From NCBI GenBank assembly GCA_024697545.1, contig JAILFN010000067.1, positions 1-64,000 on the forward strand: 64,000 bases of DNA. Reading direction: 5' to 3'. The DNA comes from Ruminococcus sp. GTDB lineage: Bacteria > Bacillota > Clostridia > Oscillospirales > Ruminococcaceae. Positions 11,200 to 64,000 of this stretch are shown in pieces. How positions within the stretch are numbered: position 1 is the first letter of the stretch; each line of letters begins with the position of its first letter. Both the position numbers and the translations under genes were made by a program. A model generated the notes under the pieces. It had not been told where the DNA came from, made no database searches, and worked only from the letters and a program-made list of their open reading frames with translations.

Positions 11200-12963
11200 T
11201 TATTCCACGATAGCTCCCGGCTTGCACATTTCGGTGCAGATGCCGCAGCCTACGCACTGAGTATGATTGATAACGCTCACCTTTGTCTTCTTTGCATCGC
11301 CCTCGGGTCTGTCCTTCATGGAGATAGCGGGACAGCCGATCTTTAAGCACTGCTTGCAGCCTACGCACTTGTCATTGTCAACGTGCAGAGGCGGGTTGTG
11401 CTTAACATATTTGAGCAGAGCGCAGGGACGGCGGGAGATTATAACGGAAGGCTCTTCCTTTGCAAGCTCCTCCTCGATGACCTTTTTGGTCTCTGCCATA
11501 TGATAAGGATCAACGACGCGGACGCTCTTTATGCCGATAGCATGGCAGAGAGCTTCAAGGTCAACGGCAGCGGCGGGATCGCCCTTTAAGTTCTTGCCCG
11601 TTGTTGGGTTCTGCTGATGGCCTGTCATGCCGGTGATGGAGTTATCGAGTATGATAACGGTGGAGTTGGTAGCATTGTATGCAACGTTCACAAGACCCGT
11701 CATACCGCTGTGCATGAAGGTGGAGTCGCCGATAACGGCAACGCTCTTCTTCTCTGCCTCAGCGCCGAGTGCCTTGTTATAGCCGTGCAGCGCACTGATC
11801 GAAGCGCCCATGCAGATGGTGGTATCCATAGCGTTCAGAGGTGCAGCGGAGCCGAGGGTATAGCAGCCGATGTCGCCGGAAACGTAAACACCGAGCTGAG
11901 AGAGGCAGTAGAACAGACCTCTGTGGGGACATCCCGCGCACATTACAGGGGGACGAACGGGAACGGGCTCGTCAAACGCCATTGTGTCGGGCTTTTCACC
12001 GAGCAGCTTCTCGCGCACGATGGACTGAGATATCTCATACTCCCAGCCGAACACTTCCTTGCCGACAACGTCGATGCCGTTCTTCTTGCAGTGAGCTTCG
12101 ATAACATCATCAAGCTCCTCTATAACGTATACCTTATCGCACTTGGAAGCGAAATCGCGGATGATCTCAACAGGCAGCGGGTTTATCATACCCAGCTTCA
12201 GATAGCTTGCCTTGTCGCCCATAGCTTCCTTGGCGTAAAGGTAGCAGTCACCTGCGGTGATGATACCGATGGAGGTATCGTTGTACTCTACCTTATTGAG
12301 CAGAGAAGTCTCGGCGTACTTTGCAGCGTCGCGGAGCTTCTGCTCGACCTCGGGATGGCGGCGCTTTGCGTTAGCGGGCACCATTACGAACTTGGCGGGG
12401 TTCTTCACATAAGGCTTAGTCTCGGGAACGACTCTGTCGAGCAGTTCAACGGTGGACTGTGAATGTGCGATGCGGGTAGACATTCTCACGATAACGGGGC
12501 TGTCGAACTTTTCGGAAAGCTCAAATGCGAGCTTTGTGAAGTCCTTGCACTCCTGAGAATCGGAGGGCTCTACCATCAGCACCTTTGAAGCGATAGCGTG
12601 ATGGCGGGAATCCTGCTCATTCTGGGATGAATGAAGACCGGGGTCGTCCGCAACGCAGATGACCATACCGCCGTTGACACCTGTGTAGCCTGCGGTGTAC
12701 AGCGGGTCTGCGGCAACGTTAAGACCAACGTGCTTCATACCGCAGAAGCTTCTCTTTCCCGCGATAGACGCGCCGAGTGCCGCTTCCATAGCCACCTTTT
12801 CATTGGGTGCCCATTCGGCATACATCTCGTCATACTTTGCGGCAAATTCCGTCACCTCTGTCGAGGGTGTTCCGGGGTAAGAAGATACGAACTCGCAGCC
12901 TGCTTCATACAGACCGCGTGCAAAAGCCTCATTACCCAGCATAAGTTTTTTCATAAAAAACAT
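11200..12963 (-). CDS. iorA: indolepyruvate ferredoxin oxidoreductase, alpha subunit
   Basis: TPP-binding GDIGCYTLG, RPPVMCAGCPHRG; C-terminal 2x[4Fe-4S] CVGCKQCLKIGCP/CVGCGICTEMCK. Confidence 0.94.
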   Translation of the reverse strand: MFFMKKLMLGNEAFARGLYEAGCEFVSSYPGTPSTEVTEFAAKYDEMYAEWAPNEKVAMEAALGASIAGKRSFCGMKHVGLNVAADPLYTAGYTGVNGGMVICVADDPGLHSSQNEQDSRHHAIASKVLMVEPSDSQECKDFTKLAFELSEKFDSPVIVRMSTRIAHSQSTVELLDRVVPETKPYVKNPAKFVMVPANAKRRHPEVEQKLRDAAKYAETSLLNKVEYNDTSIGIITAGDCYLYAKEAMGDKASYLKLGMINPLPVEIIRDFASKCDKVYVIEELDDVIEAHCKKNGIDVVGKEVFGWEYEISQSIVREKLLGEKPDTMAFDEPVPVRPPVMCAGCPHRGLFYCLSQLGVYVSGDIGCYTLGSAAPLNAMDTTICMGASISALHGYNKALGAEAEKKSVAVIGDSTFMHSGMTGLVNVAYNATNSTVIILDNSITGMTGHQQNPTTGKNLKGDPAAAVDLEALCHAIGIKSVRVVDPYHMAETKKVIEEELAKEEPSVIISRRPCALLKYVKHNPPLHVDNDKCVGCKQCLKIGCPAISMKDRPEGDAKKTKVSVINHTQCVGCGICTEMCKPGAIVE

Positions 12964-58195: not shown

Positions 58196-59098
58196 TTATT
58201 GCCCGGCGGTGTGCTTTCTGTTGTAGTCAAACGAAACCAGAGCCGTGGATATGATTATGAGATATCCTATTATGCTGTAAATATCGGGCTTGTCGCCGAA
58301 AAGCAAAAAGCCGATGGCGGTGGTGAAGATAAGCTGCGTGTAATCGTACACCGATATCTCCTTTGCGGGAGCGTAGGTATAGGCGGCGGTTATGGAGAAC
58401 TGTCCGCCCGCGGCTGAAAGCCCTGCGCCGAGCAGTACGAGCACCTGAGTCAGCGTCATCGGGTGATAGTCGAATATCAGAAACGGCAGGAAAAACAGAG
58501 TAGAAAAGCCCGAGAAGAATACGACGATGAACGGACCCTTTTCGCCGTGGCTGCCGCAGTAGCGAACGGCGGTATATGCAGCACCTGCCGAGATGCCGCC
58601 GACCAGCCCTACAAATGCGGGGAAGGAGGAAAGCCCCGAAAAGCTCGGCTTTATGACAAACAGGCTGCCGACGAACGCCGTCAGCACCATCATTCCCTGA
58701 AACACCGTCAGCTTCTCGCTCAGGAACAAAAACGAAAACAGCACCACGAAAAACGGCGACATCTTGTTCAGCATTGAAGCGTCGGAAAGCACGAGATGGT
58801 CTACGGCGTAAAAATTGCAGAGTATGCCGAAAGCGCCAACCGATGAGCGTATGAGCAGGGCGGGCAGGTTCCTTTTATCATGCGGGACGAGCGGTATGCC
58901 CTTCCTTTTCAGTGCCGCCAGTGCAAAGAAAAGCGCCACCAGATTGCGGAAGAACGCCTTCTGCGCCGAGGGCAGATCCCCCGCGAGCCGCACGAAGGTG
59001 CTCATCCATGCAAAGCAGAAGGCGGATATCACGATGCAGACGATCCCCTTTGCGCGGGGCGAAAGCGAAAGCAGCTTTTTTTCTGCCGAACTGTTCAT
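58196..59098 (-). CDS. DMT superfamily (EamA) transporter
   Basis: 10-TM pattern, two EamA-like repeats. Confidence 0.88.
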   Translation of the reverse strand: MNSSAEKKLLSLSPRAKGIVCIVISAFCFAWMSTFVRLAGDLPSAQKAFFRNLVALFFALAALKRKGIPLVPHDKRNLPALLIRSSVGAFGILCNFYAVDHLVLSDASMLNKMSPFFVVLFSFLFLSEKLTVFQGMMVLTAFVGSLFVIKPSFSGLSSFPAFVGLVGGISAGAAYTAVRYCGSHGEKGPFIVVFFSGFSTLFFLPFLIFDYHPMTLTQVLVLLGAGLSAAGGQFSITAAYTYAPAKEISVYDYTQLIFTTAIGFLLFGDKPDIYSIIGYLIIISTALVSFDYNRKHTAGQ

Positions 59099-59472
59099 CG
59101 GGCTCCGCCCCCGTTCATATATTCATGTTCCTTCCTGAGCTCGGCGATAAGATCATCAAGCTTCCAGCCTATGTTGTGGGCGGTCACTACCGCTTTGAGG
59201 GGGATGCGTACCCCCGAGGTCCTGAGGCTTTCAAGCAGGGCATTCAGCTCCGCGCGGTCAAATCCCGAAAAGATCAGGCATTCCTCGGCGGGAGCAGCAC
59301 CCTCGCCCTTTATGCCGCCGAGCTGCTGCCCGAGCGTCAGCGAGCCGTCCCCCGCTTCAACGATATCGGCGCCGTGGTCGGCAGCGCACTTCCCGACTAT
59401 CTGCAAGCGTTCGCGGGATAAGCCGCAGCAGAGAAGCTTTTTATCTGCGCTGCGGGTAACTCTTGCTTTCAT
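59095..59472 (-). CDS. DUF3783-like protein
   Basis: EECLIFSGFDRAELNALLESLRTSGVRIPLKAVVTAHNIGWKLDDLIAELRKEHEYM; overlaps the EamA start. Confidence 0.65.
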   Translation of the reverse strand: MKARVTRSADKKLLCCGLSRERLQIVGKCAADHGADIVEAGDGSLTLGQQLGGIKGEGAAPAEECLIFSGFDRAELNALLESLRTSGVRIPLKAVVTAHNIGWKLDDLIAELRKEHEYMNGGGAR

Positions 59473-59614: not shown

Positions 59615-59643
59615 TTGAAATCATAGTAAAAATGTGTTATAAT
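59615..59643 (+). promoter_or_regulatory. promoter for cheY-cheX-like pair
   Basis: TTGAAA - 17 nt - TATAAT. Confidence 0.75.
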
Positions 59644-59698
59644 TAATTTACATCAGAGTGCCATTATCGCAGGCACGGTAAAAGAGGAGGAACAACCA

Positions 59699-60079
59699 AT
59701 GAAATTAGAGGAAATGTCGGTTCTTGTATGTGACGATTCTATGTTTGCAAGAAAGAGCCTTTGTCTTTATATCACAAGTCTTGGCATAAAAAACGTGTAT
59801 GAAGCTGCTGACGGTCAGCAGGCGATAGATCAGTATTCCGAGCATAAGCCCGATATCGTATTCATGGATATCGTTATGCCCGTTATCACAGGTATAGACG
59901 CACTTACTAAGATCAAGGAGATCGACCCCGACGCTAAGGTCATTATGGCTTCCTCGGTAGGAACTCAGAACCACCTCAAAGCCGCTATAAAGGCAGGAGC
60001 AACGGATTTCCTGCAAAAGCCCATCTCCAACGATCAGGTCAGACAAACGCTTGAAAACGCGGCGAAAGGAGTGATCTGA
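59699..60079 (+). CDS. stand-alone CheY-like response regulator
   Basis: VLVCDDSMFARKSL, IVFMDIVMPVITGIDAL, VIMASSVGTQNHLKAAIKAGATDFLQKPI. Confidence 0.92.
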   Translation: MKLEEMSVLVCDDSMFARKSLCLYITSLGIKNVYEAADGQQAIDQYSEHKPDIVFMDIVMPVITGIDALTKIKEIDPDAKVIMASSVGTQNHLKAAIKAGATDFLQKPISNDQVRQTLENAAKGVI

Positions 60080-60081
60080 TC

Positions 60082-60963
60082 ATGTTCTCACAGTTTTTCG
60101 GAGGTTATCTGCTCAATCAGGGTGCGGTAACAAAAGAGCAGCTTGCAAAGGCGCTCGACGAAAAAAAGGTAACAAGAATGAGGCTCGGTGTGCTCGCTAT
60201 CAACGCGGGTCTTATGACTGCCGAGCAGGTCGAGCTCGTGAATGTGACCCAGCAGACCGTCGATAAACGCTTCGGCGACCTCTGCGTTGACATGGGCTAC
60301 CTCAAAACGGAACAGGTAGATGAGCTTCTGAGCAAGCAGCCCACCGATTACCTGCTGCTCGGGCAGACCCTCGTTAACATGGGTGCGCTCAGCAATGCGG
60401 ATTTCGAGAAGTATATCAACGAATACCGCGAGCATAATCAGATAAGCGACGATGATATCTCGGGCGACCGCAGCGACAAGCTCGCTCAGCTCGTCAGTGA
60501 GTTCTATCATTTCAGCACCTCGCAAAACGCAAAGCTTTACACAAAATATGTCACCCTGCTGCTAAAGAGCCTGATACGCTTCGTCGGCGATGACTTTACA
60601 CCGCTCGATGCTTCTCCCGCCAGAGCTTCTTCGGGAGAGCTTACCATCAGGCAGAATATCACAGGTGCATACGAAGGTATCACAGCCATTTCCGCAGGTG
60701 CCGAGGAGTACGCGACCTTCGCCAAGAGATTTGCAAAGGACGCTTATGTCCGCGACCCCGAATTCGATGACGCGAGCGTTGGCGAGTTCCTGAACGTCTG
60801 CAACGGTCTTTACGCCGTCAACGAATCCAACGAGTCGGGCGTTGAGATAAGCCTGACCCCCCTCACTACTGCCAAGAATGAGGACATGAGATTTGATAAG
60901 GAAGTTTTTTCTATCCCCGTACAGTTCACCTTCGGCGAGATAGAATTCCTTGTGGCATTCTGA
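60082..60963 (+). CDS. MshEN-like repeat protein with C-terminal CheX-like phosphatase domain
   Basis: Repeats FGGYLLNQGAVTKEQLAKALDEK / RLGVLAINAGLMTAEQVELVNVTQ / RFGDLCVDMGYLKTEQVDELLSKQ / LLGQTLVNMGALSNADFEKYINEY; C-terminal VGEFLNVCNGLYAVNES (ExxN). Confidence 0.7.
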   Translation: MFSQFFGGYLLNQGAVTKEQLAKALDEKKVTRMRLGVLAINAGLMTAEQVELVNVTQQTVDKRFGDLCVDMGYLKTEQVDELLSKQPTDYLLLGQTLVNMGALSNADFEKYINEYREHNQISDDDISGDRSDKLAQLVSEFYHFSTSQNAKLYTKYVTLLLKSLIRFVGDDFTPLDASPARASSGELTIRQNITGAYEGITAISAGAEEYATFAKRFAKDAYVRDPEFDDASVGEFLNVCNGLYAVNESNESGVEISLTPLTTAKNEDMRFDKEVFSIPVQFTFGEIEFLVAF

Positions 60964-61018
60964 TATTACCCGTTCCCCGCTGCGGCGGGGAATTGCGTGT
61001 ATAAACAAAAAGGAGAAT

Positions 61019-62210: not shown

Positions 62211-63095
62211 TTATCCTTTCAGCATCACCGTCACCGCAAAGCGTCCGCCGCTCAACTCGGCTGAGATCTCACCGCCCAGCATCTCGGTGAACTGCTTGGC
62301 TATCGCAAGCCCCAGACCCGTGTTGCCTTTAGTTCTCGAGATATCCTTTGTGTAAAATTCATCGAAAACGTGGTCGATGTCTATATCTTCCGATACCACC
62401 CCGTTTTCAAACCGAACGGATATGCCGTCATTTTCCGATACGCTGACTTCAAGGTCGCCCATGCCGTGCTTGTAGGAATTGCTTATCAGATTGTCGAATA
62501 TCCTCACGAGCATATTGCGGTTTGAGTTTATCATAAGACGGCTCTTGCCGCAGCTCAGCATTATCTGCCTGCCGCGGGCGCTGTAATCATCGTAGTAATG
62601 CACTATCGACTCTTCGAGCAGCGATATCAGATTGAGTTCGGTCATCTCGGGCGCTTTGCCGCTTGAAATGGTCTTCGAGAACTCAAAGAACGAGTCGATA
62701 AGCTCCTCGAGAATCAGCAGGCGGTCCTCGATTATTTTCAGCTCCCGAGCCTTTTCCTCCTCTGAGATATCAGAGTTCTGCAAGATGTTGATATACCCCA
62801 CAGCCGAAGTCAGCGGCGTCCTCAGGTCGTGAGAGATGTTGGTCATCATCTTCTCTAAGTCGTGGTTCTTTCGCGCATATTCTATGCGGTCGCTGCGAAT
62901 GTATCCAAGCAGCCCGTTGATCTCATCTATCAGCCTGACGGCAGTGCCGTTTACAGAATGTACCACACCGTTTGTGTCCTTTTCCTTCAGCTCGCTTATC
63001 TGCTTCGCGGCACTTTCCATCTCCTGTCGCTGCAATATCACTGCCGTAAGCAGCACCGCGGCTGCTATCGAAAGCAAAATGACGGCTGCGATCAT
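62211..63095 (-). CDS. sensor histidine kinase
   Basis: H-box NISHDLRTPLTSAVGYI, N-box DNLISNSYKHG, GNTGLGLAIAKQF. Confidence 0.94.
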   Translation of the reverse strand: MIAAVILLSIAAAVLLTAVILQRQEMESAAKQISELKEKDTNGVVHSVNGTAVRLIDEINGLLGYIRSDRIEYARKNHDLEKMMTNISHDLRTPLTSAVGYINILQNSDISEEEKARELKIIEDRLLILEELIDSFFEFSKTISSGKAPEMTELNLISLLEESIVHYYDDYSARGRQIMLSCGKSRLMINSNRNMLVRIFDNLISNSYKHGMGDLEVSVSENDGISVRFENGVVSEDIDIDHVFDEFYTKDISRTKGNTGLGLAIAKQFTEMLGGEISAELSGGRFAVTVMLKG

Positions 63096-63163
63096 AATAT
63101 CTCACCTCTTTTATCAAACAACGATACCGCACCGAGACTGCTCCGTGCGGTATGTTTTATATA

Positions 63164-63925
63164 TCAGTCAAGCTCACGCCTTGTGAATGCCAGATATCCG
63201 AGTACCGCCGATGCCGCGGCGACAACGGCTATGCCCGTATAGCAGGTCATGCGGTAGCTGTCGGTGCAGCCCACTGCCATCTTGCTCATCACGGTGCTTA
63301 TCTCATACTTTAGCAAATGCTCGGCTGTGTTCTTCGTAGACTTTATGCCGAAGAGCAAAAGCGAAACGGTAGTGTAAACAATGGGTGTGATTATCGTCAC
63401 CGAATTGAGAACAGCACCTTTCCTGAAGAAGAACGCCACAAGGATGAACACCGCAACGAACCCCGCGATCACGGGCAGCTGCCTGAAAAGCGCCTTGGTG
63501 AACTCCCCCGCGGGCGAGCTGTACTTGCTGCCGTTTATCACCCTGTTGAGTAAGTAGAAGATGTAGCAGGCGAGGGTGTAGGAAACTACCGAATAGAGCA
63601 TCGTGAAGATGAACTTCGTAAGATAATACACATTCTTGCTTATCGACGAGGATATGGTGTTCTTTATCGTATGCTCATTGAATTCCGCAGATATCAGGTT
63701 GTACACGGGGATTATCAGCAGGAAGTAATAGGTAAAGTTCATACCGAGCTGAACGATATCCATTTTGAGCGAGGGCGGGTAATCAAAGGAAGCCCCGAAG
63801 CTGACACCGCCCGGCTCCTTGAATAACACGGAGATCAGCGAGGTGCCCAGAGAAGCTGTCCAGAAAAACCAGAATCCGAAACCTTTTGTCAGGCGGTAAA
63901 GCTCCGCACGCATCATATTTATCAT
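63164..63925 (-). CDS. ABC-2 type permease
   Basis: Six-TM pattern; start overlaps the stop of the preceding ATPase (TGATG). Confidence 0.82.
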   Translation of the reverse strand: MINMMRAELYRLTKGFGFWFFWTASLGTSLISVLFKEPGGVSFGASFDYPPSLKMDIVQLGMNFTYYFLLIIPVYNLISAEFNEHTIKNTISSSISKNVYYLTKFIFTMLYSVVSYTLACYIFYLLNRVINGSKYSSPAGEFTKALFRQLPVIAGFVAVFILVAFFFRKGAVLNSVTIITPIVYTTVSLLLFGIKSTKNTAEHLLKYEISTVMSKMAVGCTDSYRMTCYTGIAVVAAASAVLGYLAFTRRELD

Positions 63926-64000
63926 CACGATACCTCCCCCACAAGCTGCTTGAAGTAATCCTCGAGAGAAACTCCCGATTCGGTTATTGAGTTGACAGTG
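63925..64000 (-). CDS. partial ABC transporter ATP-binding protein (C-terminal end, truncated by window)
   Basis: Minus-strand ...TVNSITESGVSLEDYFKQLVGEVS*, typical ABC ATPase C-terminus next to a permease. Confidence 0.6.
   Translation of the reverse strand, partial: TVNSITESGVSLEDYFKQLVGEVS

Follow-up and report, generated by a model that had tools for sequence, protein, structure and literature searches.

A stand-alone CheY paired with an MshEN-CheX protein in Ruminococcus as a candidate c-di-GMP-responsive output arm of its chemosensory system

We analysed a stretch of 64,000 nucleotides from Ruminococcus sp. (assembly GCA_024697545.1, contig JAILFN010000067.1, positions 1 to 64,000, forward strand), hereafter called the window. 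It contains a two-gene module composed of a gene for a stand-alone CheY-type response regulator and, starting 2 nt past its stop codon, a gene for a protein of 293 amino acids that joins MshEN-like repeats to a CheX-like half (Table 1). The promoter, the CheY gene, the 2-nt gap and the 293-residue reading frame had been named in a preliminary description made from the sequence alone, and all of them were confirmed on the sequence. The putative promoter, an exact match to the consensus, combines TTGAAA as -35 element (59615-59620) and a 17-nt spacer with TATAAT as -10 element (59638-59643). With at most one mismatch, the pattern TTGAAA-N17-TATAAT occurs at eight sites in the window (7143, 19954, 36712, 39290, 44854, 48978, 58152 and 59615) versus 0.26 expected, which suggests that near-consensus promoters are usual in this Ruminococcus genome. 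To judge from their layout, the two genes probably form a translationally coupled pair. A search against Rfam revealed no RNA element or riboswitch upstream of the module.

Table 1 Features of the cheY and MshEN-CheX gene pair. Positions refer to the window; residue numbers refer to the respective protein.
Feature	Position	Strand	Remark
Putative promoter TTGAAA-N17-TATAAT	59615..59643	+	Consensus match; TG precedes the -10 element
Ribosome-binding site GAGGAGG for cheY	59684..59690	+	Read from sequence
Stand-alone CheY-type response regulator, 126 aa	59699..60079	+	Response_reg match, genome search
CheY D57	59867-59869	+	Listed with K107; invariant in 8 aligned homologues
Ribosome-binding site AAAGGAG for the MshEN-CheX gene	60065..60071	+	Within the 3' end of cheY; read from sequence
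MshEN-CheX protein, 293 aa	60082..60963	+	ORF, profiles, fold prediction
MshEN unit 1, residues 5-28	60094..60165	+	Degenerate: F5 replaces R
MshEN unit 2, residues 34-57	60181..60252	+	RLG...G...Q; N54 where the consensus has L
MshEN unit 3, residues 63-86	60268..60339	+	RFGD...G...Q; nearest to the full consensus
MshEN unit 4, residues 92-115	60355..60426	+	Degenerate: L92 for R, Y115 for Q
CheX-fold domain (predicted), residues 145-293	60514..60960	+	AlphaFold pLDDT mostly 75-94 in this part
Predicted phosphatase motif E235-F-L-N238, helix 226-252	60784..60795	+	Conservation in 38 homologues
P260	60859-60861	+	21 residues between N238 and P260

Upstream of the module lies a divergent gene for a DUF3783 protein (59098-59472; 81.6 bits), and this gene and one for a DMT-type transporter stay adjacent, upstream of the module, in many members of the genus. 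On the other side, a GC-rich inverted repeat without a T run, CCCCGCtgcGGCGGGG (60972-60992), separates the module from prfB, the gene directly downstream; a terminator scan gave no call for this repeat. The minus strand carries a HisKA-type sensor kinase gene (62211-63095) 1.25 kb downstream of the module. It follows an ABC-permease-like gene (both together 62211-63928), and the two probably form an operon of the antibiotic-sensing type that is unrelated to the module; the kinase was not noticed beside the module in any of the homologous loci inspected. Because of this HisKA gene, the earlier statement that no kinase, MCP or flagellar gene is nearby holds, as far as kinases are concerned, for those of the CheA type alone.

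The CheY protein matched the Pfam model Response_reg with 97 bits (E 7.6e-28), and its residues D12, D13, D57, S85 and K107 were invariant among eight aligned homologues. A search of its own genome turned up no further stand-alone CheY relative. When five genomes of the genus were searched with this CheY, each yielded one short receiver ORF, namely the module's own, and all remaining matches lay in frames of at least 210 amino acids.

The N-terminal half of the neighbouring protein had been described as four degenerate MshEN units, and this was borne out. The protein scored 76.9 bits (E 7.4e-22) against the NCBIfam model NF053729 for the MshE-related c-di-GMP motif, which has a curated cut-off of 38 bits. 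All spacers between the four 24-residue units measure 5 residues, an exact match to the MshEN domain as given in its 2016 description, with two 24-residue motifs and a 5-residue spacer (PMC5013675). In profile alignments, residues 31-86 matched residues 6-61 of c-di-GMP-bound Vibrio cholerae MshE (structure 5htl) in register, with unit 2 on motif I and unit 3 on motif II, and further matches were found to PilF and PilB. The full-length AlphaFold model, which is of moderate confidence, contains repeated helix pairs in this half. A separate, low-confidence model of the N-terminal half (pLDDT 77, pTM 0.51) gave no significant Foldseek match, MshE included (5htl, E 3.3). Pfam matches to FumaraseC_C, DUF4388 and DUF3867 fell below the cut-off here and were treated as helical-repeat cross-hits. 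Genome G088 encodes, near prfB, a second MshEN-repeat protein with about 300 amino acids and a C-terminal half devoid of ExxN (L042:1483-2388).

The six c-di-GMP contacts of a MshEN motif are R, L, G, L, L and Q, and no single unit pair has all of them in both motifs. Units 2 and 3 together offer R, G and Q in both motifs, but N54 in place of L, and one R is missing in each of the pairs formed by units 1 and 2 and by units 3 and 4. The corresponding NF053729 scores are 46.0 bits for units 1 and 2, 37.2 bits for units 2 and 3 and 35.7 bits for units 3 and 4. Because units 1 and 4 lack the arginine, unit 2 carries N54 and single pairs score in this low range, we regard c-di-GMP binding as likely, not certain. 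It could be argued that the chain from CheA over CheY to CheX holds while the repeats no longer bind c-di-GMP and act as a docking surface, for instance for PilB, PilM or the chemoreceptor array, so that location sets the phosphatase activity. This would fit the missing arginines, the low pair scores and the replacement of a hydrophobic contact at position 54 by Asn or His, seen in 35 of the 38 homologues; a MshEN domain that lost binding is known in XpsE (PMC5013675). However, Gly7, Gly36, Gly65, Gln57 and Gln86 are invariant across the 38 homologues, R or K is kept at position 34 in every one of them, and the whole-protein profile score lies well above the cut-off. The same paper reports that Arg changes in MshE cost less than fivefold, and GGDEF domains abound in the genome (28 matches), which indicates a well-developed c-di-GMP signalling. 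We therefore consider loss of binding in favour of docking unlikely.

For the C-terminal half, a CheX fold is predicted. Among the PDB structures matched by the AlphaFold model, the first 13 were all CheX or CheX/CheC-like (E 8.7e-11 to 5.7e-7; TM by target 0.70-0.79) and included the Borrelia CheX-CheY complex 3hzh. The Pfam model CheX (PF13690) scored 18.9 bits for the window protein, below the gathering cut-off of 27 bits, and matched 17 of 17 family members tested (E up to 0.1; best E 3.7e-8). Fold matches and family profile thus uphold the proposed CheX-like half, and the ExxN motif is present as EFLN with 21 residues to P260, as had been claimed. Published CheX-type consensus sequences have Asp or Ser four residues before the Glu of this motif, whereas most homologues examined here have Ala. 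This deviation, together with the weak profile score of the window protein, would be compatible with a CheX-like domain that binds phosphorylated CheY (CheY-P) as an effector or adaptor and is no phosphatase. We rate this as improbable: E235 is conserved in 36, N238 in 37 and P260 in 33 of the 38 homologues, and no other candidate for a CheY-P phosphatase was seen that could serve the single CheA system of this organism. From the predicted fold and these residues, CheY-P phosphatase activity appears very probable.

Close homologues of the MshEN-CheX protein all came from Ruminococcus records, one of them being 94% identical. A profile search detected the full-length protein in 20 genomes among 150 relatives; when 391 genomes sampled across the class were searched, about 20 contained it. 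The genomes are partly MAGs, and members of the genus are non-independent data points. Of 38 distinct homologues, 37 have a CheY gene directly adjacent on the same strand, upstream in 28 pairs and downstream in 9; one of these CheY proteins is a fragment of 63 amino acids. Most of these loci, like the one in the window, lie outside any chemotaxis operon, in agreement with the position noted previously; in one of them, L110, CheA and CheW are located about 6 kb away.

CheW/CheA was found in all 38 module carriers of the two surveys (20/20 relatives and 18/18 class-wide). In the genome of the window, three CheW-domain matches resolve into one cluster, cheA-cheW-cheR-cheB-cheW (L069), in which CheY, CheC, CheX and CheD were all absent; relatives whose cluster was fully read have an identical chemotaxis gene content. 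One MCP was detected. The assembly of this genome is 87% complete, which is why absences lean on relatives that are 92-99% complete. The CheA, encoded at L069:10654-12723, contains one Hpt domain, P2, dimerisation, HATPase and CheW domains and no receiver. Since the only CheA/W/R/B cluster lacks CheY as well as CheC and CheX and is accompanied by one MCP, the CheY of the module is its likely partner, and the simplest account is apparently that the CheY and the phosphatase which the cluster does not encode come from the orphan pair. With regard to this gene content, we consider phosphotransfer from CheA to CheY highly probable.

With a donor other than CheA, such as a different histidine kinase or a metabolic phosphodonor, the pair would become a free-standing timer for c-di-GMP and phosphate. 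The position of the module outside its own che cluster would fit this, and in the related clostridia G238 and G328 the order is MshEN-CheX gene, CheY gene and, directly after it, a gene for a CBS-Hpt-HATPase kinase (L109:5815-9104 and L108:8676-13642). The constant presence of CheW/CheA in carriers speaks against such a donor, as does the P2 domain of the genus CheA, which has no partner CheY in its cluster, and we judge this alternative to be rather improbable. The kinase of G238 and G328 has no CheW domain, and in L108 a transposase-like ORF (11315-12772) seems to have been inserted into the kinase gene and to interrupt it.

Concerning the output of CheA and CheY, flagella were ruled out for the genus: FliMN_C was absent from the genome of the window and from 12 relatives within the genus (13/13), while it was present in 39 of the 150 genomes searched. 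Type IV pili are a better candidate. In the genome of the window, pilB (with a MshEN domain of its own), pilT, pilD and pilin-like genes lie together in one locus (L070). All 20 carriers among the 150 relatives possess both CheW and PilB, 14 of them being without FliM/N, and the module was found in none of the 17 genomes with CheW and no PilB. With one genome taken for the genus, Fisher's test gave p 4e-6 for CheW and p 2e-6 for PilB. Among genomes with CheW and PilB and no FliM/N, 14 of 17 carry the module, and the other three are 55%, 56% and 87% complete. In the relative G004, 88 bp separate the end of pilD-pilB-pilT from the convergent che cluster, which has the order cheW-cheB-cheR-(peroxiredoxin-like)-cheW-cheA (L123:4759-12946). 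In the relative G003, a gene for a type IV pilin-like protein (GFTLVELVVVIAIIGVLAAI; L072:13833-14369) is found at a distance of about 1.1 kb from the che genes.

An action on pili is suggested by this co-occurrence and synteny. In the class-wide sample, CheW was present in 18 of 18 carriers and PilB in 12 of 18. Pili as a universal partner were thus ruled out by the six clostridial carriers without PilB; CheA is the constant partner, with a motor that may differ. In most CheAs of the Tfp class, several Hpt domains are combined with a receiver domain (PMC10782961). Since the CheA described here has one Hpt and no receiver, the system is placed outside that class by its CheA architecture, though a control of pili is possible.

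The carriers without PilB would also be in line with an output in exopolysaccharide production or attachment and not in pilus mechanics, as in the Dif pathway of Myxococcus. There, the orphan CheY-like EpsW is a substrate of the CheA DifE, likewise in a type IV pilus organism, with exopolysaccharide as output (PMC4671073); this offers a precedent for an orphan CheY with its CheA elsewhere. Furthermore, Ruminococcus albus makes a glycocalyx on cellulose (PMC4300822). This alternative has to be weighed against the adjacency of the che cluster and pilB-pilT in G004, the presence of PilB in every carrier among the relatives and the lack of the module in genomes with CheW and no PilB, and we regard it as having a minor chance of being correct. 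Type IV pili, which published work connects with the binding of R. flavefaciens and R. albus to cellulose (PMC3672088, PMC4300822), remain somewhat favoured as the best output candidate in Ruminococcus. The input and output of the module, called unknown in the preliminary description, are therefore narrowed by one CheA/W/R/B cluster, one MCP, the lack of a flagellar switch and the pilus motor genes.

A unit that couples c-di-GMP to CheY-P dephosphorylation is still the best reading of the gene pair. In the explanation we prefer, the pair, encoded at a separate locus, would provide both output and signal termination for the sole chemosensory system; as a whole, this has about an even chance of being right. 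The one MCP, which has a cache-type sensor in the relative inspected, would signal to the CheA of the cluster, which would phosphorylate the CheY of the module. The CheX domain would bind CheY-P and remove the phosphate with E235 and N238. Binding of c-di-GMP to the MshEN repeats, which together with the resulting gating is likely in view of their sequence, would raise or lower the CheX activity, and c-di-GMP would in this way set the lifetime of CheY-P. It may be speculated that high c-di-GMP switches the phosphatase on and shuts off chemosensing on surfaces, the reverse sign being just as conceivable. In Ruminococcus, which is devoid of flagella, CheY-P would most probably act on the type IV pilus machinery, in which the extension motor PilB likewise contains a MshEN domain, and so influence attachment to fibre or surface movement; in flagellate clostridia, the unit could serve whichever motor exists. 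The complete scheme, in which c-di-GMP directly gates CheY-P lifetime and the pair, as the one output arm available to the only chemosensory system, controls type IV pili, is proposed tentatively, as somewhat more apt to be wrong than right; in such a case, the control of pili probably serves attachment to plant fibre.

The architecture itself is not new. The preliminary description did not know it as a described system, but proteins joining MshEN to 'phosphatase CheX', a domain combination identical to that of the Ruminococcus protein, were listed by Wang et al. in 2016 (PMC5013675). In its accessible portion, that paper merely lists them, with neither gene pairing nor function, and our literature search on MshEN and CheX found no dedicated study besides this listing. 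Compared to CheX of Thermotoga maritima (1squ/1xko) and Borrelia burgdorferi (3hzh), the Ruminococcus protein shares the predicted fold and the ExxN...P residues, and the adjacency to a CheY gene matches as well. It differs in its fusion to four MshEN units, in a gap of 21 instead of 22 residues between Asn and Pro, and in being encoded apart from the chemotaxis cluster. To our knowledge, no MshEN-CheX phosphatase has been recognised in the DifE-EpsW pathway of Myxococcus. The N-terminal half of the Ruminococcus protein resembles the MshEN domains of MshE (5htl), PilB and PilF in the 24-residue motifs, the 5-residue spacers, the RLG...G...Q pattern and the match to the curated profile, whereas the Ruminococcus protein has four tandem units instead of two, some degenerate contacts and a CheX domain in place of the ATPase. 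Links between c-di-GMP and chemotaxis that are known to us run via PilZ chemoreceptors, PilZ brakes or other receptors, and we know of none via a CheY-P phosphatase. Within the genus, R. flavefaciens 007 possesses a pilus locus with pilT, pilB, pilD and pseudopilins and raises its pilin 19-fold on Avicel; chemosensory control was not reported in that study (PMC3672088).

New in our analysis are the near-constant pairing with CheY and its distribution across Clostridia, the adjacency of che and pil genes in G004, and the likely role of the pair as the missing end of a non-flagellate system with one CheA and one MCP. If this holds true, the MshEN-CheX/CheY unit would represent a direct junction between c-di-GMP and a chemoreceptor phosphorelay within one protein, conserved across several families of Clostridia. 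Gut and rumen Ruminococcus would thereby gain a full and testable pathway consisting of an MCP, CheA, an orphan CheY, a c-di-GMP-gated phosphatase and pili.
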